IMG/VR virus record: IMGVR_UViG_3300037189_004982
Coordinates: 1-27,062 of that record
Source of the DNA: a virus
Direction: 5' to 3' (one strand)
DNA length: 27,062 nt
Positions 1 through 26,643 of this stretch are shown here, in pieces (the first letter of the stretch is position 1; every line of letters starts with the position of its first letter). Under the pieces are notes generated by a model. That model was not told where the DNA came from. It saw nothing but the letters and a program-made list of their open reading frames with translations, and searched no databases. Both the position numbers and the translations under genes were made by a program.

Positions 1-76
1 CATGCCGCCAAGAGTGGCGTGTTTGGAAGGTGTAGTCGAGCCCCTGCCCCCAGGTTTTGATAGCTGAATCAGCCAT
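1..76 (-). CDS. Hypothetical protein, N-terminus only (cut by window edge)
   Basis: An ATG at 76-74 opens a frame that runs without a stop to the left edge, giving 25 residues beginning MADSAIKTWGQG. The start overlaps the last 8 bases of the winged-helix gene (ATGGCTGA), the same overlap used between thyX and its follower. AAGGA lies 8 bases upstream as a ribosome binding site. The visible part is rich in aromatic and basic residues (W, Y, F, R, H). That is too little to assign a family; the N-terminus of a recombinase or another early enzyme is possible, but this is a guess. Confidence 0.6.
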   Translation of the reverse strand, partial: MADSAIKTWGQGLDYTFQTRHSWRH

Positions 77-410
77 TGAGGATGTCCTTGATTTGATTGA
101 TGACCATCTCACCCTTAGGTGTTAGGTAAAGCAGCCTGTCACGTTGATCTAGGTAATCTTTTTTCTTTACAATGAGGTCCATGCCGGGTTTGCCTAATCG
201 GTGGTAGTCCGAGAGCCAGTCAGTGCAACGGCTTGCGCTACTTGTGGAATAGCCCAACGCACTAGCTAGCTGCTTGCTACGGCACCCATTATGGCCTGCT
301 ATGTAAAAAAAGGTTGAGATTACTTGAGCCGGAACCTGTCGGTCAAATAGACGAAGGATGTCTATTATCTTCCTCAGTTTCTCGATCTCGGGATCTGTAA
401 CTGGAGCCAT
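69..410 (-). CDS. MarR-like winged-helix DNA-binding protein
   Basis: A 113-residue protein starting at ATG 410. The frame stays open to a TTG at 452, but no ribosome binding site supports the longer forms. Residues about 25-60 read as helix-turn-helix (RSKQLASALGYSTSSASRCT), followed by a basic stretch and a wing-like segment (RDRLLYLTPKGEMV) typical of MarR-type folds, in which 'LTPKG' is a hallmark. It probably binds DNA as a regulator of phage or host transcription. It overlaps the next gene by 8 bases, so the two are probably translationally coupled. About 100 bases of non-coding DNA lie upstream. Its target is unknown; the repeated TCACGATCG motif elsewhere in the early region is one candidate. 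Confidence 0.7.
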   Translation of the reverse strand: MAPVTDPEIEKLRKIIDILRLFDRQVPAQVISTFFYIAGHNGCRSKQLASALGYSTSSASRCTDWLSDYHRLGKPGMDLIVKKKDYLDQRDRLLYLTPKGEMVINQIKDILNG

Positions 411-473
411 GACTGAACGCCTGGATGACTGGCCATTCACAGTGTAGCTCAAAGGAGCCGCACGAATAGCCTA

Positions 474-945: not shown

Positions 946-965
946 TTGTTGTTGACGATCGTGGT
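946..965 (-). promoter_or_regulatory. Repeated motif, copy 5 (variant)
   Basis: The minus strand reads ACCACGATCGTCAACAACAA, sharing CACGATCGTCA with copy 1. It sits directly upstream of ATG 944. If it is a promoter, the transcript would have almost no leader; if it is an operator, it would block initiation. It is the most divergent of the well-placed copies apart from the core. Confidence 0.35.
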
Positions 966-991
966 AATGGTGGAAGGATCGAAAGAGGGAA

Positions 992-1219
992 TCAGCCGAC
1001 GATTGCAGTCAGTAGACACACAAGGTCTTTGTCGTAATCGACATCGGCAGCAGCAAGAAATCCCTCAATGAAGCCAGCTTTGAATGAAGCACCAGCAAGG
1101 GAGGAACCATGCTCTTCCTTGTAGGCTTCGATGGCCTCAATGGTTGCATCGACTTGATCTTGATACTCTTCAGCAGTCACACCTTCGGGTGCTTCAAGGA
1201 CGAGTTGAGCGTTGATCAT
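992..1219 (-). CDS. Small acidic hypothetical protein (75 aa)
   Basis: ATG at 1219 (MINAQLVLEAPEG) is preferred over the TTG at 1273, because the longer frame would span an intrinsic terminator at 1231-1256. The product is acidic and mostly helical (TAEEYQDQVDATIEAIEAYK), with a hydrophobic Ala/Phe/Gly stretch near the middle (SFKAGFIEGFLAAADVDYD) and a short hydrophobic C-terminus. There is no clear Shine-Dalgarno sequence. It is the first gene after the terminator, followed after 47 bases by the 81-aa gene. No family recognised. Confidence 0.6.
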   Translation of the reverse strand: MINAQLVLEAPEGVTAEEYQDQVDATIEAIEAYKEEHGSSLAGASFKAGFIEGFLAAADVDYDKDLVCLLTAIVG

Positions 1220-1230
1220 CTTAGAAGTAC

Positions 1231-1256
1231 AAAACAAAGGACACAGAAGTGTGCCC
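1231..1256 (-). terminator. Intrinsic terminator T1
   Basis: On the minus strand GGGCACA, loop CTTC and TGTGTCC form a 7-bp stem with one G-U pair, followed by TTTGTTTT. It closes the chain of short genes ending at 1295 and ends 11 bases before the next start codon (1219). Confidence 0.7.
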
Positions 1257-1294
1257 CCAGAAAACCAACCCAAGAGGGAATGGCTATTTGGGAG

Positions 1295-1459
1295 CTACCA
1301 GTCATCAACTGTTAGGCATGAAAGGAGAGTAGACTTATGGCCAAGAAGTTCAAGGCCATTTAAGATGGCATCCCTCAATGAGAAGGCCCCAACAATGATG
1401 GAGCCCGTTGTAGTAGTTACCTTGTAGAATCTCAGTGCCTGTTTAATTTGTACCCCCAT
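1295..1459 (-). CDS. Micro-gene, hypothetical (54 aa)
   Basis: ATG 1459 to TAG 1295-1297 encodes 54 residues starting MGVQIKQALRFYKV. It contains a hydrophobic middle (SIIVGAFSL) and a helical, leucine-rich second half (DAILNGLELLG). GAGGA sits immediately before the ATG, which is closer than optimal. It overlaps the preceding 49-aa ORF by 28 bases out of frame and is followed by terminator T1. The protein-like composition and stop-to-start packing argue that it is real. Function unknown. Confidence 0.5.
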   Translation of the reverse strand: MGVQIKQALRFYKVTTTTGSIIVGAFSLRDAILNGLELLGHKSTLLSCLTVDDW

Positions 1460-1581
1460 TCCTCACATAGAGAGTTGGCATCCTTCTCCTTTCCGTATTG
1501 GCAGAGGAAGTTGACCCTTGAGTGTACGTCTTTTGGCATGGGTTGCCTATCCTCAGGTGGCCTACTAAGTGTTGCTGGCAT
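1432..1581 (-). CDS. Micro-gene, hypothetical (49 aa)
   Basis: ATG 1581 lies two bases after the stop of the 37-aa ORF (TAACCATG) and runs to TGA 1432-1434. An internal in-frame ATG at 1539, with AGG nearby, would give a 35-aa form. The product is charged and has two cysteines (FLCQYGKEKDANSLCEEWGY), with a helical look. No family recognised. The packing between neighbours is the main support. Confidence 0.45.
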   Translation of the reverse strand: MPATLSRPPEDRQPMPKDVHSRVNFLCQYGKEKDANSLCEEWGYKLNRH

Positions 1582-1583
1582 GG

Positions 1584-1697
1584 TTAGATTGACGAAAAAC
1601 GTTGAAGTTCCATCTGCAGGGCATGAAGCTCTCTCTCACAGTGACGCTCAATATCGAGGGTTTTTGCCCTGTTCCTGAGTTGCCTGTAGTGGGACAT
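1584..1697 (-). CDS. Micro-gene, helical charged peptide (37 aa)
   Basis: ATG 1697, preceded by AAGG at 5 bases, runs to TAA 1584-1586. It starts inside the 62-aa gene and overlaps it by 50 bases in another frame. The peptide is an almost continuous charged helix (DIERHCERELHALQMELQRF) with Leu and Phe spaced as in an amphipathic helix or short coiled coil. Overlap with a membrane-protein gene recalls nested spanin pairs, but no lipobox is visible. Function unknown. Confidence 0.45.
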   Translation of the reverse strand: MSHYRQLRNRAKTLDIERHCERELHALQMELQRFSSI

Positions 1698-1836
1698 GCG
1701 AACCTTGATCCAGTTGATGTGGGCGTACATATTTGTCATAGGGATCCTGGTAACCGAGAAGAAGTCCGAGAAGGTACAACATTGGAGCCAGCCAGAGAGG
1801 TAGACTGGCAGTGAAGAGAAGTGGGAGCCACTTCAT
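1648..1836 (-). CDS. Small membrane protein (62 aa)
   Basis: ATG 1836 overlaps the stop of the 67-aa gene as TAATG. Residues about 3-28 form one or two tightly spaced hydrophobic segments (LPLLFTASLPLWLAPMLYLL), followed by a hydrophilic tail rich in Q, H, P and K. It is probably a small inner-membrane protein made early in infection. A longer ORF in another frame (1736-1972) overlaps it but lacks the coupling signal. Family not recognised. Confidence 0.55.
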   Translation of the reverse strand: MKWLPLLFTASLPLWLAPMLYLLGLLLGYQDPYDKYVRPHQLDQGSHVPLQATQEQGKNPRY

Positions 1837-2039
1837 TAGCGAGCGTTCTGTAAAGAACCAGAAACAATGTCAATGCGACTGTGGGGATACCTATCACACC
1901 AGCGGTCCAAATGTGCATCAGCCTGCTCATAGGTTGGAAATGTAGCCAATATTTCCCATTCGCCTGCATCATCTAGAGCAGCGATATGGTATTGAGGCTT
2001 GAATTTAGACGTTTGCCTGAAGAATGTGGGATGAGCCAT
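1836..2039 (-). CDS. Small hypothetical protein (67 aa)
   Basis: ATG 2039 follows the stop of the 108-aa winged-helix gene by two bases, and its own stop forms TAATG with the 62-aa gene. The product has alternating beta-type and helical segments (YHIAALDDAGEWEILATF, then YEQADAHLDRWCDRYP). This suggests a small compact alpha/beta domain with aromatic and acidic residues. No family recognised. Confidence 0.6.
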   Translation of the reverse strand: MAHPTFFRQTSKFKPQYHIAALDDAGEWEILATFPTYEQADAHLDRWCDRYPHSRIDIVSGSLQNAR

Positions 2040-2041
2040 AA

Positions 2042-2368
2042 TCAGTACGCAACCTGTGGGAATTGGAGCAGTGAAGTAATGAATGCCATGATTCGATCAC
2101 GCTTCCTGACACGAACCTCAGTCAAGATGTGGAAGTGGCGATACTTACGCTTTGACAAAGTACCATCAACATTCAGAGTTGATGCACTTACTGCATAAAT
2201 TAACTTCTCTTCGATCATCCTGTTAAGGACGCAATGAGTGACCCAATCATTATGTTGGGGGAAACTAAGTTCCTTACTGATCTGATACTGACGAAGGCCA
2301 TCCTCTTTAGAGAGGATTTTAACAATCTGAGCCGCAGTCTTGCGGTAGGCTTGTTGCTTGGAGTCCAT
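2042..2368 (-). CDS. Winged-helix-like protein (108 aa)
   Basis: ATG 2368 gives 108 residues. Residues about 8-60 resemble a winged helix: helix 1 (TAAQIVKILSKEDG), a helix-turn-helix (RQYQISKELSFPQHNDWVT), a recognition-type helix (HCVLNRMIEEKLI), then two strands with basic residues (TLSKRKYRHFHIL). It may be a transcription factor or a small DNA-binding inhibitor. It is the first gene after motif copy 1 and terminator T2, heading a chain of short genes that ends at T1. No Shine-Dalgarno sequence is visible before the ATG. Confidence 0.6.
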   Translation of the reverse strand: MDSKQQAYRKTAAQIVKILSKEDGLRQYQISKELSFPQHNDWVTHCVLNRMIEEKLIYAVSASTLNVDGTLSKRKYRHFHILTEVRVRKRDRIMAFITSLLQFPQVAY

Positions 2369-2401
2369 GATTTTAGAGAGAATGAGTGAAGAAAGTCCCT
2401 G

Positions 2402-2421
2402 CTGATTGTGACGATCGTGAT
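2402..2421 (-). promoter_or_regulatory. Repeated motif, copy 1
   Basis: The minus strand reads ATCACGATCGTCACAATCAG. It begins 5 bases after the T-run of terminator T2 and lies 33 bases before ATG 2368. The core ATCACGATCG is identical in copies 3 and 4, and ACARTCAG recurs at the 3' side. The position suits a promoter or operator. Confidence 0.5.
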
Positions 2422-2426
2422 TTCAC

Positions 2427-2456
2427 AAAAAAAAGAGGGAGGTTGTTAGCCTCCCC
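2427..2456 (-). terminator. Intrinsic terminator T2
   Basis: On the minus strand GGGAGG, a 7-base loop and CCTCCC are followed by CTCTTTTTTTT. It lies 6 bases after the stop of the 55-aa gene and directly before motif copy 1. Confidence 0.8.
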
Positions 2457-2462
2457 TTTGTG

Positions 2463-2630
2463 CTATGCCCTTGCCTCTTTTAGTACGAGGTTGAAGAGTT
2501 CACCCTTGAAGAATCGAATTGCCCTGTAGTAGGCATGGCTTTCTGAATCAGTCTTGATTGAAAGCGTAGTCCTATCAGCACCCCTGAAGACATAATGAAT
2601 ATCAGGGGGATTGTCGTTTCGATTCTTCAC
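2463..2630 (-). CDS. Small hypothetical protein with GTG start (55 aa)
   Basis: GTG at 2630 overlaps the stop of the 203-aa gene (GTGA), and the frame ends at TAG 2463-2465, just before terminator T2. The 55-residue product starts MKNRNDNPPDIHYVFRGA and is basic and helical toward the C-terminus (YYRAIRFFKGELFNLVLKE). Exact stop-start overlap plus a terminator immediately downstream make it a credible gene despite its size. It probably works with the coupled upstream protein. No family recognised. Confidence 0.65.
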   Translation of the reverse strand: MKNRNDNPPDIHYVFRGADRTTLSIKTDSESHAYYRAIRFFKGELFNLVLKEARA

Positions 2631-3238
2631 TTTCTTACACCCCTATAGAGGTTGCGGTGTGTGACCCATGTGATAGCTTGCACCTGATAGGATGTATAGT
2701 TTGTGCCCATAATTCGGTTGATAATCGCAGTAGCCTGACGATAATCAGATGCGATCTCTTGATACAACTTCGCACTAATCTTAGGCGTATCAGTTGTAGA
2801 AACTCTCTTGCCAATCCAGATAGAGTAAGCATGGCCATCGACACAAACATCATCCTGATGGAGAATGCAGCGATAAAATGCTTGCTGCTTTCGACCATTC
2901 AATATGTCACCAATCGTTTCCATATCACCATTACTTGAAAGGATCTGAATCGCCTTCCGTTTGTTAGCACCGAACGTGCCAACCTTAAGATCATCTACTG
3001 ATGATGGATCTATTGAATACAGTTTCACCATATTCTCAGCATCCTGAACATTACGTTCCCACGGATTCTGTGGTGAAAGGGCGGAAATAACACCTGCAAC
3101 TTTCAATATGCTGATGTTGTAATCACGAGCGATTCTGCATGTGATTAGATTAGCTAGTCGATACCAATCCAATCCCTCTTGAATCTCACCGGCAGACGCT
3201 AGAAAAAACGTGCCGAGAATAGGCGTAGGCGTTGACAT
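2627..3238 (-). CDS. Conserved phage protein, DUF7178-like (203 aa)
   Basis: ATG 3238 is preceded by GGAGG at 5 bases, so it is chosen over the longer frame (3271), which reaches the T-tract of T3. Conserved-looking motifs are ALSPQNPWERN (residues 53-63), FGANKRKA (89-96), VCVDGHA (131-137) and QAITWVTHR (187-195). I recall this arrangement from a family widespread in phages and annotated DUF7178. The mostly helical pattern with a conserved Asp-x-His might indicate a nucleic-acid enzyme, but no activity is assigned. It forms a two-gene unit with the 55-aa gene, between T3/motif copy 6 and T2. Confidence 0.6.
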   Translation of the reverse strand: MSTPTPILGTFFLASAGEIQEGLDWYRLANLITCRIARDYNISILKVAGVISALSPQNPWERNVQDAENMVKLYSIDPSSVDDLKVGTFGANKRKAIQILSSNGDMETIGDILNGRKQQAFYRCILHQDDVCVDGHAYSIWIGKRVSTTDTPKISAKLYQEIASDYRQATAIINRIMGTNYTSYQVQAITWVTHRNLYRGVRK

Positions 3239-3253
3239 TGAAACCTCCAAGAA

Positions 3254-3266
3254 TGACGATTGTGAG
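3254..3266 (-). promoter_or_regulatory. Repeated motif, copy 6 (short)
   Basis: The minus strand reads CTCACAATCGTCA, one base different from copy 1 over TCACGATCGTCA. It follows the T-run of terminator T3 by 7 bases and precedes the Shine-Dalgarno sequence of the 203-aa gene. Confidence 0.35.
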
Positions 3267-3272
3267 AGCATT

Positions 3273-3302
3273 AAAAAGAGGGGAAACTATCAGCCTCCCC
3301 CT
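3273..3302 (-). terminator. Intrinsic terminator T3
   Basis: On the minus strand AGGGGGA pairs with TTCCCCT (7 bp, one G-U) around a 10-base loop, then C and TTTTT. It lies between the 187-aa gene (stop at 3325) and the 203-aa gene. Confidence 0.75.
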
Positions 3303-3324
3303 TATCTATTGTCAGGTGCAATGA

Positions 3325-3888
3325 TTAGCTGAAATGTTTATCGATCGCACTGCAGAAAGTATCGATGCACGCAATCGGCAAGATTACAATTTTCTGGTGA
3401 ACACCTAGACCCTGCACAAGGGCCGCCGCAGACTGTAGGACAACCTCAGAAAATAGGATCTGTTTGATATAGTTAGGGCACTTACCCTTAAAATAGTTTT
3501 GAGCTGATCTAACCATTTCACGGTAGGTATTCAGCTCGCCAAGCATACTAAAATCAGAATGAGATTGGAGATGCGCCCAATCATGAATGGCGCGAAACTT
3601 CAAATTGTCTTGGTAGTCGATAATTGCGGGACTTCCGCCAGTAAATACTCTAATTCTCCCCAATTGTGTTGCTTCAAGTTTCATCTGAGAGAATGAAGTG
3701 TAAGGATCATCCTTTGACCACTCAATTCCGATAGGCAGATCATAGAATCGGCGGATCAAGTAAGACCTATAAAGGTCGATTGCAGCACTACTAAAACATG
3801 GTCTATCAACCGTCATACATTCAGACGATTCATAGACTAGATTAAGGTCGAAGATAATATCCTTTTGTTTGTTAGTGAGTGTTGCCAT
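3325..3888 (-). CDS. Hypothetical phage protein with HDxxH motif (187 aa)
   Basis: ATG 3888 has GGAGG 7 bases upstream, so the longer frame (3990) is rejected. The product is mostly helical. The segment RAIHDWAHLQSH (residues 99-110) followed by GELNTYREM resembles an H-D-x-x-H pattern I have seen in uncharacterised phage proteins. The histidines and the following Glu could bind a metal, but this is inference. There are three cysteines in the last 55 residues. It is the first gene after the long non-coding stretch, so it would be the first early gene if the genome end lies there. Confidence 0.6.
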   Translation of the reverse strand: MATLTNKQKDIIFDLNLVYESSECMTVDRPCFSSAAIDLYRSYLIRRFYDLPIGIEWSKDDPYTSFSQMKLEATQLGRIRVFTGGSPAIIDYQDNLKFRAIHDWAHLQSHSDFSMLGELNTYREMVRSAQNYFKGKCPNYIKQILFSEVVLQSAAALVQGLGVHQKIVILPIACIDTFCSAIDKHFS

Positions 3889-3931
3889 GATTGAACCTCC
3901 TGTGGGTGATACCTTTTGCCAGGTGAAATGA

Positions 3932-3955
3932 TGGAGAGAAAAAAAATACTCTCCA
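3932..3955 (-). other. Hairpin with T8 loop in the leader of the 187-aa gene
   Basis: On the minus strand TGGAGAG and CTCTCCA form a perfect 7-bp stem around TATTTTTTTT. It lies in the leader between motif copy 2 and ATG 3888. The T-run sits inside the loop rather than after a stem, so it is not a normal terminator. It may be a leader RNA structure. Confidence 0.4.
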
Positions 3956-3970
3956 ATTATGGACACAAAA

Positions 3971-3987
3971 GACTGTGAGATCGTGCC
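3971..3987 (-). promoter_or_regulatory. Repeated motif, copy 2 (one base shorter)
   Basis: The minus strand reads GGCACGATCTCACAGTC, matching copy 1 with one base missing in the middle. It follows a 7-bp hairpin (3992-4012) and lies 83 bases before ATG 3888. Confidence 0.35.
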
Positions 3988-4258
3988 CACAAGTTAGCTG
4001 ACGAGGCTAACTAATTACGACGCTAAGTGATAGGATCCGAGCCTATCTTTGTCGGTGCTAATGTTTGCCTGTTTATGTAATGTTTGCCCGACCCGCCACT
4101 TCGCCGTAGGTTGTCACACTGACCCATTGGCTGTTTGCTGTCTGCCCGTGCCAAACCACGCAAACCAAGGGGCCAGACCTACCGTGTGCGGGTCTGCCGT
4201 TGGCGATTATGCGATTTTCAAGGTTCCCGGCCGGTTCCCCGTCCGATGAAGTAAGTAT

Positions 4259-4274
4259 GCATCGGATCCGATGC
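4259..4274. repeat. 16-base perfect palindrome
   Basis: GCATCGGATCCGATGC is self-complementary and has no loop, so it suits a dimeric protein site better than an RNA hairpin. Its centre GGATCC is shared with a 14-base palindrome at 26004-26017. Confidence 0.6.
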
Positions 4275-4288
4275 TAGGTGGATAGTTA

Positions 4289-4314
4289 GTGTGCCGATTT
4301 TTTTGCTGGCACAC
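4289..4314. repeat. Inverted repeat around a T7 run
   Basis: GTGTGCC and GGCACAC (7 bp, perfect) flank a 12-base loop containing seven T on the plus strand. No gene is attached. Confidence 0.5.
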
Positions 4315-4379
4315 CAGACTAGACAGGATGGCAGGCTAAGTGCTAAGAGCCCGATCAGCAGGAGATGCGATAGACTATA

Positions 4380-4403
4380 CTGACTGTTTGCGCCGATCGT
4401 GAT
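4380..4403 (-). promoter_or_regulatory. Repeated motif, copy 3
   Basis: Matches copy 4 at 22 of 24 positions. On the minus strand the core is ATCACGATCGG, followed by AACAGTCAG. It lies 122 bases downstream of copy 4 in the transcription direction, inside the non-coding region. Confidence 0.5.
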
Positions 4404-4501
4404 ACCAACATGCCAAGGATTAGGCCAGCTTAAATGTATCTATCCGTGCTGTACACTTCAGGGTAAGCAACTGGGGATACACTTGAGCAGGTTGAGTGAT
4501 G

Positions 4502-4525
4502 CTGACTGTTGGGGCCGATCGTGAT
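4502..4525 (-). promoter_or_regulatory. Repeated motif, copy 4
   Basis: The minus-strand core ATCACGATCGG begins at the very base after the T-run of terminator T4 and ends with AACAGTCAG. The terminator-then-motif order repeats that of copies 1 and 6. Confidence 0.5.
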
Positions 4526-4553
4526 AAAAAAAGGGGTGCAACTTCGGTCGCAC
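4526..4553 (-). terminator. Intrinsic terminator T4
   Basis: On the minus strand GTGCGAC, loop CGAA and GTTGCAC (7 bp, one G-U) are followed by CCC and TTTTTTT. It has no gene within 320 bases upstream, so it would end read-through from thyX/84-aa or a short non-coding transcript. Confidence 0.75.
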
Positions 4554-6084: not shown

Positions 6085-6298
6085 GTCTTGTCAGTTTAAC
6101 TGTTTAATATTAATAGTCCCTGTGTCGGTGGATTGTCTCCTTGTGCCTCCCCCGAAGGGGTGCCGGTTAGGGATCGAGTCCACCCTCTCTTTCCCCTCCC
6201 GGCCTACGTGTCTGGCTGAAACTAGCCCCTACAAGCCCCAGGAATGCCCCTCTAGGCATCCTTGCGTGGTAGGACACCCCTGGAGCCTTGGAGGCGGC

Positions 6299-8041
6299 TT
6301 AGCGGCGCACAGAGGCCCATGCTGGGAGTCTTCCAGACTTGGTGATTCCCCTAGCTTGTCGTCGCTGGTCGATGTCGAATCCGAGTGCCAGGTGGTTGCA
6401 AGCCTGCTTAGGATCGTCCAGCCAAGAATCGAGCTGATCCTGCCAGTCTTCCTGCTTCCGTACCTTGACCTGTTCGTGAGCTGAGAGACCCAGACTCTCG
6501 ATGAAGAACTTGACCCCTTGGGCGATAACGTCAATCCTGTCGTCGTGTCTGACTGCCCCTTTCTCTCTACACATCCGACTCATCTGGTAGAAGAGCATAT
6601 ACATCAGACGCTCCTCTGACGGGAGGTTAGGATTACTTTCGTAGTCCCACTCGATTACACTGCGGTCAAACACCAGCCGATGTTGGTTCATAATCGGCTC
6701 AAGAGCGTCAATGATACGATCTTCCTTGCGGACAGTGGCTCTTGTCTCTTGAATATCGATGCCTAGTTTAAGCTGAAGAATGTGCTTCCTGAAGAGTTCA
6801 GAGACTGTACCGTCGCCAAAGTTCGATTCAATCAACAGTGTGGTAGCTTTGTACTTCCGACACATCTTAAGAATCTCCAGAAGTGTCTTGTCGCTATAGC
6901 CATCCTGCGTGGCGTACATCTTTGGGATGTAAATGTAGCCATGCTTCTGTCCCATGATCGCTGCGGTTGTCTCGTCCTTGCCTCTACCGGAGGGATCGAC
7001 CGAGCAGATGACCTGCTGATAGGGGGTCCATTCACCCTGGATGACCATGGGGGAGTAGAAGCGGTCGCCTGGGAGGCCAACAGCAGGCAGATCCTTGATG
7101 ATGTTGCGAGGATCAGAGCACCAGACGATGCCGTCAGGGGCCAATTCTGGGTTGACTGAGGTGACAATAAGGTCTTCAAACTTCAGTGGGAACTTCTCAG
7201 CATCACTAAGGCTGGTATCCAGCATGAACTGGAGCATGAAGTTCGATCTACCCTTGCTGGCCTCACGCTGAAGGAGGTCATCATCGGTGAATCGGTCAGG
7301 ATCGGTAGGTGTCCAAAGAGCAACACCCTTGTCAAGATCAGCCTGAAGCTGTGGAGCCAGCAGACCTTCGTAGCCGTGAAGAGATTTTGGGTATCGAGCT
7401 GGCCAAACGAACGGACGATAGTTACGCTCTGCCAGTTTCCGGTAGATTGTAAAGGTCGTCTGTGGCGTTCCAAGGTAGATGATTCGGCTATCTTCCCGTG
7501 GAGTGAGAAGATCCTCCGCTTCAGTGCAGAGTTGAAGCAATCTCTCTCTCATCAGCTCGGTCATCGAGTTACCTGGAACCTCAATGTCGTCCATCAGGAT
7601 GATGTCAGCACGGGAACCAGTCATCTGTCCGGTAATACCGACTGATTTGACCGAAGGATCCTTACTTGGTCGGCAGTTCACATCGAACTTGATCATCGAC
7701 CATAGGCCATCCTTTGGTTTGAGGTGAACCAACCAGGCAGTTTCCTCAATTAGACGCTGGATGAACTTACTGTGGTCGTCAGCAAGGCTCTTACTGGCCG
7801 AAACGATCAGGATCTTCTTCTCTGAGTTGTTGAAAAGGTTCCAGATCACGAAGGCATCTGTGATCCAGCTCTTACCTACACCACGGAAGGCTTGAATCTG
7901 GATACGCTTGGGACCATGCTGGAGGTAATCGGCGATGGCAAGCTGTGCCCTGGTCGGCGGGGGTAGTCCTAATGTTTTCCAGATAGCTGATAGGAAGACT
8001 TTGAAGTCCTCCTGCATCAAAGTGAGGGAGTCTTTTTGCAT
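6299..8041 (-). CDS. terL: Terminase large subunit (T7 gp19-like)
   Basis: ATP-driven motor and nuclease that cuts concatemeric DNA and packs it into the prohead. The 580 aa match the T7 gp19 family closely in order and spacing. Walker A is FRGVGKSW (52-59). Walker B is IILMDDIEVP (147-156). SVKSVGITGQMTGSRAD leads into it, and YLGTPQT (189-195) follows. Nuclease-domain residues are D349 (SVDPSGRGKDET), E405 (ESNFGDG) and the HDDRID cluster (499-504). The start is ATG 8041 or possibly ATG 8017, which gives the usual MQEDFKVFL beginning. Terminator T5 ends at the base before ATG 8041, so expression depends on read-through or a start elsewhere. Confidence 0.97.
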   Translation of the reverse strand: MQKDSLTLMQEDFKVFLSAIWKTLGLPPPTRAQLAIADYLQHGPKRIQIQAFRGVGKSWITDAFVIWNLFNNSEKKILIVSASKSLADDHSKFIQRLIEETAWLVHLKPKDGLWSMIKFDVNCRPSKDPSVKSVGITGQMTGSRADIILMDDIEVPGNSMTELMRERLLQLCTEAEDLLTPREDSRIIYLGTPQTTFTIYRKLAERNYRPFVWPARYPKSLHGYEGLLAPQLQADLDKGVALWTPTDPDRFTDDDLLQREASKGRSNFMLQFMLDTSLSDAEKFPLKFEDLIVTSVNPELAPDGIVWCSDPRNIIKDLPAVGLPGDRFYSPMVIQGEWTPYQQVICSVDPSGRGKDETTAAIMGQKHGYIYIPKMYATQDGYSDKTLLEILKMCRKYKATTLLIESNFGDGTVSELFRKHILQLKLGIDIQETRATVRKEDRIIDALEPIMNQHRLVFDRSVIEWDYESNPNLPSEERLMYMLFYQMSRMCREKGAVRHDDRIDVIAQGVKFFIESLGLSAHEQVKVRKQEDWQDQLDSWLDDPKQACNHLALGFDIDQRRQARGITKSGRLPAWASVRR

Positions 8042-8089: not shown

Positions 8090-9313
8090 TTACTTCTTAC
8101 GCTTTTTCTGGTCAGGGATAGCCAAGGAGCTGCTGTAGTCCGAAGTCATATCGAAGCCTCGCTCAGATGGCACGGACTTGGAGAAGTTGGTTGTGCCGAC
8201 AATCTTTTTACCCAGTGGGTTCATGTCGGTACGGAACTTGGCTACACCAGTCCGAGGGGCGTTAAACAGGTTCTGCTGTTCGGGAGCTTTAGCTGCTGGC
8301 TTAGCTGCTGCTGGAGGAGCTTTAGGTGCCGAAGTAGGTGCAGAAGGTCGGCCAGTTGACGGACGAACCGAGGGACGGGCCACCGATGCAGACGGACGCT
8401 CACGGATGATGTCGCTGCCACCAGATACTGGATTGGGGGAACCACCACCACGATTGTCTGCCGCTGGAGGCTTGGAGGTCGGCTTGTTCCGATTGGGCAG
8501 ACCCTTGGGAACTGGCGGGCCAGCTTTCTCATTAGTGATCCCCCGACTACGGTTCCCGAGGTCGGCACCAGCAGATTCACCGGAGTAGGGACGACGATTA
8601 TCCTTACCGTTGACTTTGTTTTCAATAGCAATACCGAGATTGCTCAAGTCATGGATAATGTTGTCTTTAGGGTTAAGGATCTTTTGAGCCTCTGCTCCTG
8701 CAGCGAGTGCAGTCATCCCAGCACCAACTACTGAACCAGCTCCACGCAGGAACCGGCCAACGCGACCAACACCTTTAGCAGCCGTAGCTAGCGCCTCACC
8801 CTTTGCTCCAGCAGGGCCGGCAGGGCGGCCTCCGCTAGGTCGATCAGCTCCAGGATACCCAGTCCGAACACTGGATTTAGATGACCCCCTAGAGGCCGCA
8901 TCCTTCTGGCCAGCCTTAAAGAACGACGGTGCATTGGGGTCCATCCGTGTACCCACCGCTCCTCCAGCCTTACCAGCAGGAAGAGAAGACCGACTATTGC
9001 CAAGATCCCTTACCTTTACCCGTTCAATAGGTGGATCCACCTTGCCACCAGGGGATTGGCTAATAGCACCACCCTTACGACCCGCAGGAAGAGTAGGACG
9101 ATTGCTACCAAGATCCCTTACCTTTACCCGTTCAATAGGGGCAGTTGGCCTACCCCCAGGTGAGCGTGAAGCAGGGCCACCCTTACGACCAGGAGGGAGG
9201 ACATTTGAAGAAGTGGGAGGAGTAGCAGCACGACGACCAGCTTGCTGTGCAGCCACTTTCTGACGACCACGGGTATTGAACGATCCCCGTTGCGGTCTAT
9301 TTTTAGGAGCCAT
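8090..9313 (-). CDS. Repetitive basic Pro/Gly/Ala-rich protein (407 aa)
   Basis: Mostly low-complexity and basic. Near the N-terminus a unit of about 36 residues is repeated: LPxGRKGG, then SPGG, then PIERVKVRDLG, with a third partial LPAGKAGGA. A central hydrophobic, Gly/Ala-rich segment (FLRGAGSVVGAGMTALAAGA) could insert into a membrane or pack as a helix. The remainder is Pro/Ser/Ala-rich and ends in a lysine/arginine run. No enzymatic motif. The position between the HNH gene and terL and the basic character suggest a virion or DNA-associated protein, but this is inference. Terminator T5 follows its stop. Confidence 0.7.
   Translation of the reverse strand: MAPKNRPQRGSFNTRGRQKVAAQQAGRRAATPPTSSNVLPPGRKGGPASRSPGGRPTAPIERVKVRDLGSNRPTLPAGRKGGAISQSPGGKVDPPIERVKVRDLGNSRSSLPAGKAGGAVGTRMDPNAPSFFKAGQKDAASRGSSKSSVRTGYPGADRPSGGRPAGPAGAKGEALATAAKGVGRVGRFLRGAGSVVGAGMTALAAGAEAQKILNPKDNIIHDLSNLGIAIENKVNGKDNRRPYSGESAGADLGNRSRGITNEKAGPPVPKGLPNRNKPTSKPPAADNRGGGSPNPVSGGSDIIRERPSASVARPSVRPSTGRPSAPTSAPKAPPAAAKPAAKAPEQQNLFNAPRTGVAKFRTDMNPLGKKIVGTTNFSKSVPSERGFDMTSDYSSSLAIPDQKKRKK
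9000..9139. repeat. 32-bp exact direct repeat (108-base period)
   Basis: The same 32 bases, starting CCAAGATCCCTTACC, occur at 9000-9031 and 9108-9139. The 108-base period equals 36 codons, so the repeat encodes the duplicated PIERVKVRDLG block of the 407-aa protein. Confidence 0.85.
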
Positions 9314-26148: not shown

Positions 26149-26643
26149 TCAGATGTAGGTGCCGGTAAGGAAGGAACCAGCACGGACAGTTGTGTTCACC
26201 GCAGTAGCAGCGTTCTGAGCAAAGCTGAGCTGAACGATGCCTGCAGTTGCACCATTCTGGATGATACCAGTGCCACGGGCAAAGCCATCAGTACCGGATG
26301 CACAGGTGATGGTCCGGTTGGTCGTACCGTCAATCGTGATGTCCAGGCCAGCAACAACAGCAGTCAGGGCATCAGGTGCAACGTGCTCCCGAAGTAGACG
26401 ACCCTGAGTCAGGGTGCCGGGGATTGTCAGCAGGTAACGGAAGCCAGCGGCAGCGGTGGTGGTGAACCAGAGTTCGTAGTTGAACTCCACACGTTGATAC
26501 TTGGCAAGCGTGAACTGCAGTTCAGGTACAACGACCACAGTGGCACTATTGTTGACCGTCTGATCAGCAGAAAGGAGGTTGTAGAACGGCTCACTGGAGG
26601 TGTACTCAACAGCAGAGTTCTGAGGGTTAATCTTAAATGGCAT
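26149..26643 (-). CDS. Putative virion protein, beta-rich (164 aa)
   Basis: ATG 26643 gives 164 residues with strand-like, Thr/Ala/Val-rich sequence. A pattern of the type LSADQTVNNSATVVVVPELQ, then VEFNYELWFTTTAAAGFRYL, recalls jelly-roll-like domains of phage fibre or head-decoration proteins. There is no coiled coil or charged helical look, so a scaffolding role (expected at this site in T7) seems unlikely. No clear Shine-Dalgarno sequence. It lies between a weak hairpin (26678-26692) and terminator T7. Confidence 0.6.
   Translation of the reverse strand: MPFKINPQNSAVEYTSSEPFYNLLSADQTVNNSATVVVVPELQFTLAKYQRVEFNYELWFTTTAAAGFRYLLTIPGTLTQGRLLREHVAPDALTAVVAGLDITIDGTTNRTITCASGTDGFARGTGIIQNGATAGIVQLSFAQNAATAVNTTVRAGSFLTGTYI

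Follow-up and report, generated by a model that had tools for sequence, protein, structure and literature searches.

The early region of a T7-like cyanopodovirus carries a short motif that recurs on one strand, and the locus raises the question of whether this motif acts in DNA, as a promoter or an operator, or in RNA, as part of the leaders of early messages. The DNA analysed, referred to as the window, was a fragment of 27,062 nucleotides spanning the joined genome ends of such a phage (PHROG and Pfam matches).

The early region and its motif copies

The minus strand of the window encodes capsid, tail, internal virion proteins, fibre and terminase, and then ThyX (PHROG/Pfam), with the order late genes, terL, thyX, a non-coding gap and early genes. 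A matching order was found in S-CBP1, S-CBP3, S-CBP4, S-SRP01, DSL-LC07, S-TIP37, Syn5 and P-SSP7. In relatives terL was followed by thyX (in most), a non-coding gap and small early genes, then the RNA polymerase (RNAP) gene, and several had a MarR-like regulator and an integrase among the early genes ahead of RNAP. Because the gene order is shared with relatives, the motif region is the early region just past the joined genome ends. The RNAP gene was absent from the window and would lie past the contig's left end. A search for relatives of a 106-aa ORF found none, and Rfam and tRNA scans of the motif region gave nothing useful. The features of the region, with terminators called by a terminator scanner, were:

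4536 to 4553, minus strand: intrinsic terminator before copy 1
4502 to 4525, minus strand: copy 1, ATCACGATCGGCCCCAACAGTCAG, in the non-coding genome-end region, directly 3' of the terminator T-run
4380 to 4403, minus strand: copy 2, ATCACGATCGGCGCAAACAGTCAG, no gene directly 3'
3971 to 3987, minus strand: claimed copy 3, GGCACGATCTCACAGTC, weak
3325 to 3888, minus strand: 187-aa early protein, weak phrog_7806 match, homologue at L084 7955-8470
3279 to 3301, minus strand: intrinsic terminator before copy 4
3254 to 3266, minus strand: copy 4, CTCACAATCGTCA, a leader box with GGAGG at 3244-3248 and the ATG of the DUF7178 protein at 3238-3236 (layout TCACAATCGTCA-N-GGAGG-N-ATG)
2627 to 3238, minus strand: 203-aa early protein, DUF7178 / phrog_3842
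2436 to 2456, minus strand: intrinsic terminator before copy 5
2402 to 2421, minus strand: copy 5, tandem boxes, 3' of the terminator (layout ATCACGATC-GTCACAATC-AGCAGGGAC), L084 counterpart at 8541
2042 to 2368, minus strand: 108-aa early protein 3' of copy 5, without a family match
1237 to 1258, minus strand: terminator-like hairpin closing the 108-aa unit
946 to 965, minus strand: copy 6, ACCACGATCGTCAACAACAA, abutting the ATG (944-942) of an 81-aa ORF
69 to 452, minus strand: MarR-like regulator (phrog_9665; P-SSP7 gp0.7 family), one of two proposed winged-helix proteins

The core YCACRATCGKC matched exactly five times in 27,062 bases (4514-4524, 4392-4402, 3255-3265, 2410-2420 and 954-964). 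All five matches were minus-strand and confined to the early 4.5 kb, against an average of 0.12 matches, and never more than 1, in dinucleotide shuffles of the window; although the pattern was chosen post hoc, its margin over expectation was large. The long form ATCACGATCGKCNCMAWCAG, allowing up to 3 mismatches, matched copies 1, 2, 5 and 6 only (0.01 expected), and copy 4 matched the motif in its core only. The repeated early-region motif of the original prediction was thereby borne out, with five of the six proposed copies fitting the core and copy 3 failing the ungapped pattern. Its pairwise figures were right but attached to the wrong copies, the 22/24 identity belonging to copies 1 and 2 and the 11/12 over the core to copies 5 and 6. 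The late genes, described as free of the motif, indeed held no core match, and one match with a single mismatch (ATCACGATTG, 26331-26340) was inside an ORF. An exact IMG/VR search with the long motif returned 5 stretches, and the matches examined in context fell within ORFs of 60 aa or longer.

Copies 4, 5 and 6 were just 5' of start codons, copy 6 having its ATG directly 3' and no Shine-Dalgarno (SD) sequence. Three copies stood behind T-runs, as had been proposed, at distances from the T-run end of 0, 6 and 5 bases (copies 1, 4 and 5) in place of the claimed 0, 5 and 7. The proposed series of motif, gene and terminator units was partly real; copies 1 and 2 had no gene directly after them, and no terminator lay ahead of copy 6. 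The site of copy 3 was not kept in the relative L084, though the stretch just upstream (3994-4064) was 79% identical. Two tandem hairpins, GATAGGCTCGGATCCTATC and GTTAGCCTCGTCAGCTAAC, were found at 4029-4047 and 3993-4011 (minus strand) and at L084 7118-7170 (79% identity across 71 nt); they precede the first early gene by about 100 nt and possibly form a structured leader.

A family box in related cyanopodoviruses

In many cyanopodoviruses, early genes carried the sequence TTCACAATC[AG]NC on their coding strand. Its link with the window form came from L084, whose DUF7178 protein was 56% identical to that of the window. A terminator in L084 was followed by AATCACGATCATCACTATCAACTCAGGGAC / AAAAAAATCACGATCATCACTATCAACTCAGGGAC, which aligned with copy 5 (AATCACGATCGTCACAATCAGCAGGGAC), and the gene 3' of the L084 element was unrelated to the 108-aa gene of the window. 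Both phages had DUF7178 and phrog_7806-like neighbours, in swapped order (window 2627-3238 and 3325-3888; L084 7277-8470). From L084, copies 4 and 5 and the shared position, we infer that the ATCACGATCG form of the window is a version of the family TTCACAATC form, and copies 4, 5 and 6 fit this class of box. In L085, a contig of 59.6 kb that also encodes a DUF7178 protein, an inverted-repeat element, GATCGTGA-N about 20-TCACGATC, recurred at 6377, 7060 and 7355 (minus strand).

Permuted words of the same composition as TTCACAATC served as controls for strand, region, terminator and SD enrichment. In terL-matched loci (690 kb), all 22 occurrences of TTCACAATC were on the coding strand and none on the opposite one, against means of 3.3 and 3.9 for permuted 9-mers; 21 matches lay after terL (260 kb) and 1 before it (444 kb). 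A hairpin with a T-run lay at most 20 nt ahead of the box in 9 of 61 copies (1.4% for permuted words), an ORF started just 3' of it in 27 of 61 (19%), and an SD sequence was within 12 nt in 10 of 61 (2.5%). Where an SD existed, the box was 5' of it, mostly by 3-5 nt. The loci share descent, and therefore p-values overstate independence.

A cassette of intrinsic terminator, TTCACAATC, AAGGA and ATG was often seen ahead of unrelated proteins, several of which were preceded by the same leader, and a search behind T-runs recovered TTCACAATC[AG]NCACAAGGACGCACC-ATG in other cyanopodoviruses. Boxes without a terminator, directly 3' of an upstream stop codon, also occurred. Among homologues (L016, L032 and L055) the 9-mer box was fixed and its flanks had diverged. 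The tie to terminators and to the starts of early units was supported and reached into relatives.

Raw counts of TTCACAATC were inflated because some matches were conserved coding sequence, namely the primase zinc finger VHNH and the C-terminal FTITEN before RNAP; matches before primase or RNAP in several phages, considered as leaders, were coding and thus left uncounted. Of 83 non-redundant matches, some of them in loci retrieved through the motif pattern itself, only 41 fell outside any ORF of 60 aa or more. Another word enriched upstream, GAATCCACC, was rejected as a signal, being the conserved RNAP C-terminus, and so was HIP1 bias as a source, since CGATCG showed no excess in the window, with 5 copies where 6.5 were expected.

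The exact 9-mer was absent from P-SSP7, S-TIP37 and S-CBP4, and the box is therefore not universal or essential among cyanopodoviruses. Outside the group, the first 50 kb of the T4-like phage S-PM2 had a single non-coding-strand TTCACAATC, and the pelagiphage HTVC011P had none. When the genome collection was searched with the 19-nt leader, no cyanobacterial sequence matched, and a search of the freely accessible literature found no paper on the box.

Promoter, operator or leader

The phage RNAP promoter of the group was sought, in each relative, as the best repeat shared by the post-terL stretch and the remaining locus. In 13 loci this was a repeat of 17-20 nt that ended in TATACAGGGAGA or a similar sequence, with one copy a short way past terL and the other within the RNAP gene (for example L035 11741/16662, L078 5563/12873 and L144 44441/5064). 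The pair, of RNAP promoter type (CCCACCCGTATACAGGGAGA in relatives), co-varied within each genome, and the start GGGAGA...GGGTGGAC was conserved. It agreed with Syn5, where promoters number only two and are of the ATTGGGCACCCGTAAGGG type (PMC3950665). The window has a similar site about 100 nt after terL:

6167 to 6219, minus strand: candidate promoter, with start, for the phage RNAP, ACACGTAGGCC-GGGAGGGGAAAGAGAGGGTGGACTCGA, which aligns with the promoter after terL in relatives

Its ACACGTAGGCC followed by GGGAGGGGAAAGAGAGGGTGGACTCGA aligned with the conserved start region GGGAGAAGGGAAGGGTGGACCCGA. We regard 6167-6219 as the probable, not certain, counterpart of the relatives' promoter because its upstream half matches less well. 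The co-varying pair is directly usable for promoter prediction genome by genome.

The original prediction had offered the motif as a promoter of the phage single-subunit RNAP or as an operator of a winged-helix protein, and neither fared well. That the phage is T7-like, and that TCACWATC by eye faintly resembles a segment of the T7 promoter (TCACTATAG), speaks for the polymerase; against it, the repeat found in the 13 relatives and near 6200 in the window is a different one, the early motif is neither similar to that pair nor present at its post-terL and RNAP sites, Syn5 has two promoters of that other type only, and all boxes lie in a region read before phage RNAP exists, so that this reading is very improbable. 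Hardly better placed is the idea that the motif serves the 108-aa protein or the MarR-like regulator (69-452) as its operator. In temperate T7-like phages, MarR-like proteins have been proposed to bind near the RNAP promoter (PMC10134795), and a palindrome, ACGATCGT, is present in copies 5 and 6; the palindrome was found in these two copies only, and neither copies 3 and 4 nor the family box TTCACAATC have it. Operators do not usually keep so strict an orientation, and the box was not tied to the regulator gene, as P-SSP7 and S-TIP37 have a MarR-like gene and no box, and Syn5 and DSL-LC07 a box and no MarR-like match. Local duplication could relate only copies 1, 2 and 5, which a repeat finder grouped in one family, and the likeness of the rest to a wider leader box would then reflect in part A/C-rich, SD-poor leader composition; many early leaders are A/C-rich. 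Permuted 9-mers of the same composition showed none of the strand, region, terminator and SD ties, and we consider this account improbable, if a little less so than an operator.

The main rival is an early promoter of which the box is part, with polymerase starting just 3' of it and re-initiating after each terminator. It ranks as such because several copies are behind terminators, so that restart or read-through is needed, and because no gene follows copies 1 and 2; these two, 122 bp apart, lie in the genome-end gap, where T7 has its tandem host promoters A1-A3 (498, 626 and 750). Orientation was also fixed, and in L084 the element persists ahead of a different gene. On the other side, no conserved -10 or -35 hexamers were found at the copies, promoter-like sites occurred at chance rate, only 9-12 nt are conserved, boxes 12 nt from an ATG without SD (copy 6, L016 and L032) would give leaderless mRNA, and the phage RNAP promoter of the group is a different sequence at different sites. 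An early promoter is, to us, a serious but minority possibility.

A proposed leader box on terminator cassettes

The observations to be explained are the recurrence of the box, its strand and early-region bias, its ties to terminators, SD sequences and starts, and the differing genes downstream. The layout of terminator, box, SD and ATG, together with the boxes after stop codons, is fitted best by an mRNA leader signal. We put at about even the chance that the motif is the local version of an early-gene leader box, TTCACAATC[AG]NC, carried on terminator cassettes and acting in mRNA. The box would lie on the coding strand just 5' of the ribosome-binding site or start codon, and terminator, box, SD and start codon would form a small cassette ahead of unrelated early genes. 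The terminator or 3' hairpin would close the upstream message and the box would begin the leader of the next gene, where it may aid ribosome loading, mRNA processing or stability. Action would thus be in RNA rather than DNA. Copies 1 and 2, without SD or ORF directly 3', fit a DNA-level element better; they may be remnants of cassettes, or they may serve some other purpose. As the cassette is independent of the gene behind it, it could help to swap early genes.

Comparable signals are known in other phages. The SAS/ESAS of cluster K mycobacteriophages are short conserved sequences just 5' of the start codons of several unrelated genes. The box likewise stands before unrelated starts, including or beside the SD, its sequence is unrelated to theirs, and SAS/ESAS are not known to have a fused terminator. 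A fixed short distance 5' of SD or starts of unrelated genes was found for copies 4-6 and not for copies 1-2. The T7 early region has host promoters A1-A3 and messages with their own leaders, and the hairpins between its early genes are RNase III sites, whereas those of the window are intrinsic terminators with T-runs and a conserved box. The Syn5-type RNAP promoter ATTGGGCACCCGTAAGGG is also a conserved signal in the same phage group, at two sites only and with another sequence.

The promoter early stem-loops (PeSLs) of T4-like phages (Arbiol 2010 and Comeau 2014, as cited in PMC4503421), as far as that source describes them, also combine a stem-loop or terminator with a short conserved signal between small early genes and are linked to shuffling. 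The window likewise had stem-loop terminators adjoining a repeated conserved signal between early genes. The same cassette occurred before unrelated genes, and gene order was swapped in L084. By the same account PeSLs hold a host-type early promoter, whereas no such promoter was found in the cassettes of these T7-like cyanophages: sigma70-type hits were at chance level and none was placed consistently at the copies. The constant part of the cyanophage cassettes is instead the 9-12 nt box beside the SD.

A more specific form of the leader box reading is tentative and rather unlikely as it stands: in T7-like cyanophages a dedicated 9-12 nt signal before the SD, recognised by a factor of phage or host, would mark early messages and travel with the terminator as a swappable cassette. 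If this is true, new early genes could be inserted already insulated and ready for translation. The early regions of cyanophages contain many small genes of little-known function that come and go, and a shared terminator-leader cassette would explain how these are plugged in and expressed. The cassette would also mark early genes in metagenomes and provide a testable signal where early transcription has been little mapped.
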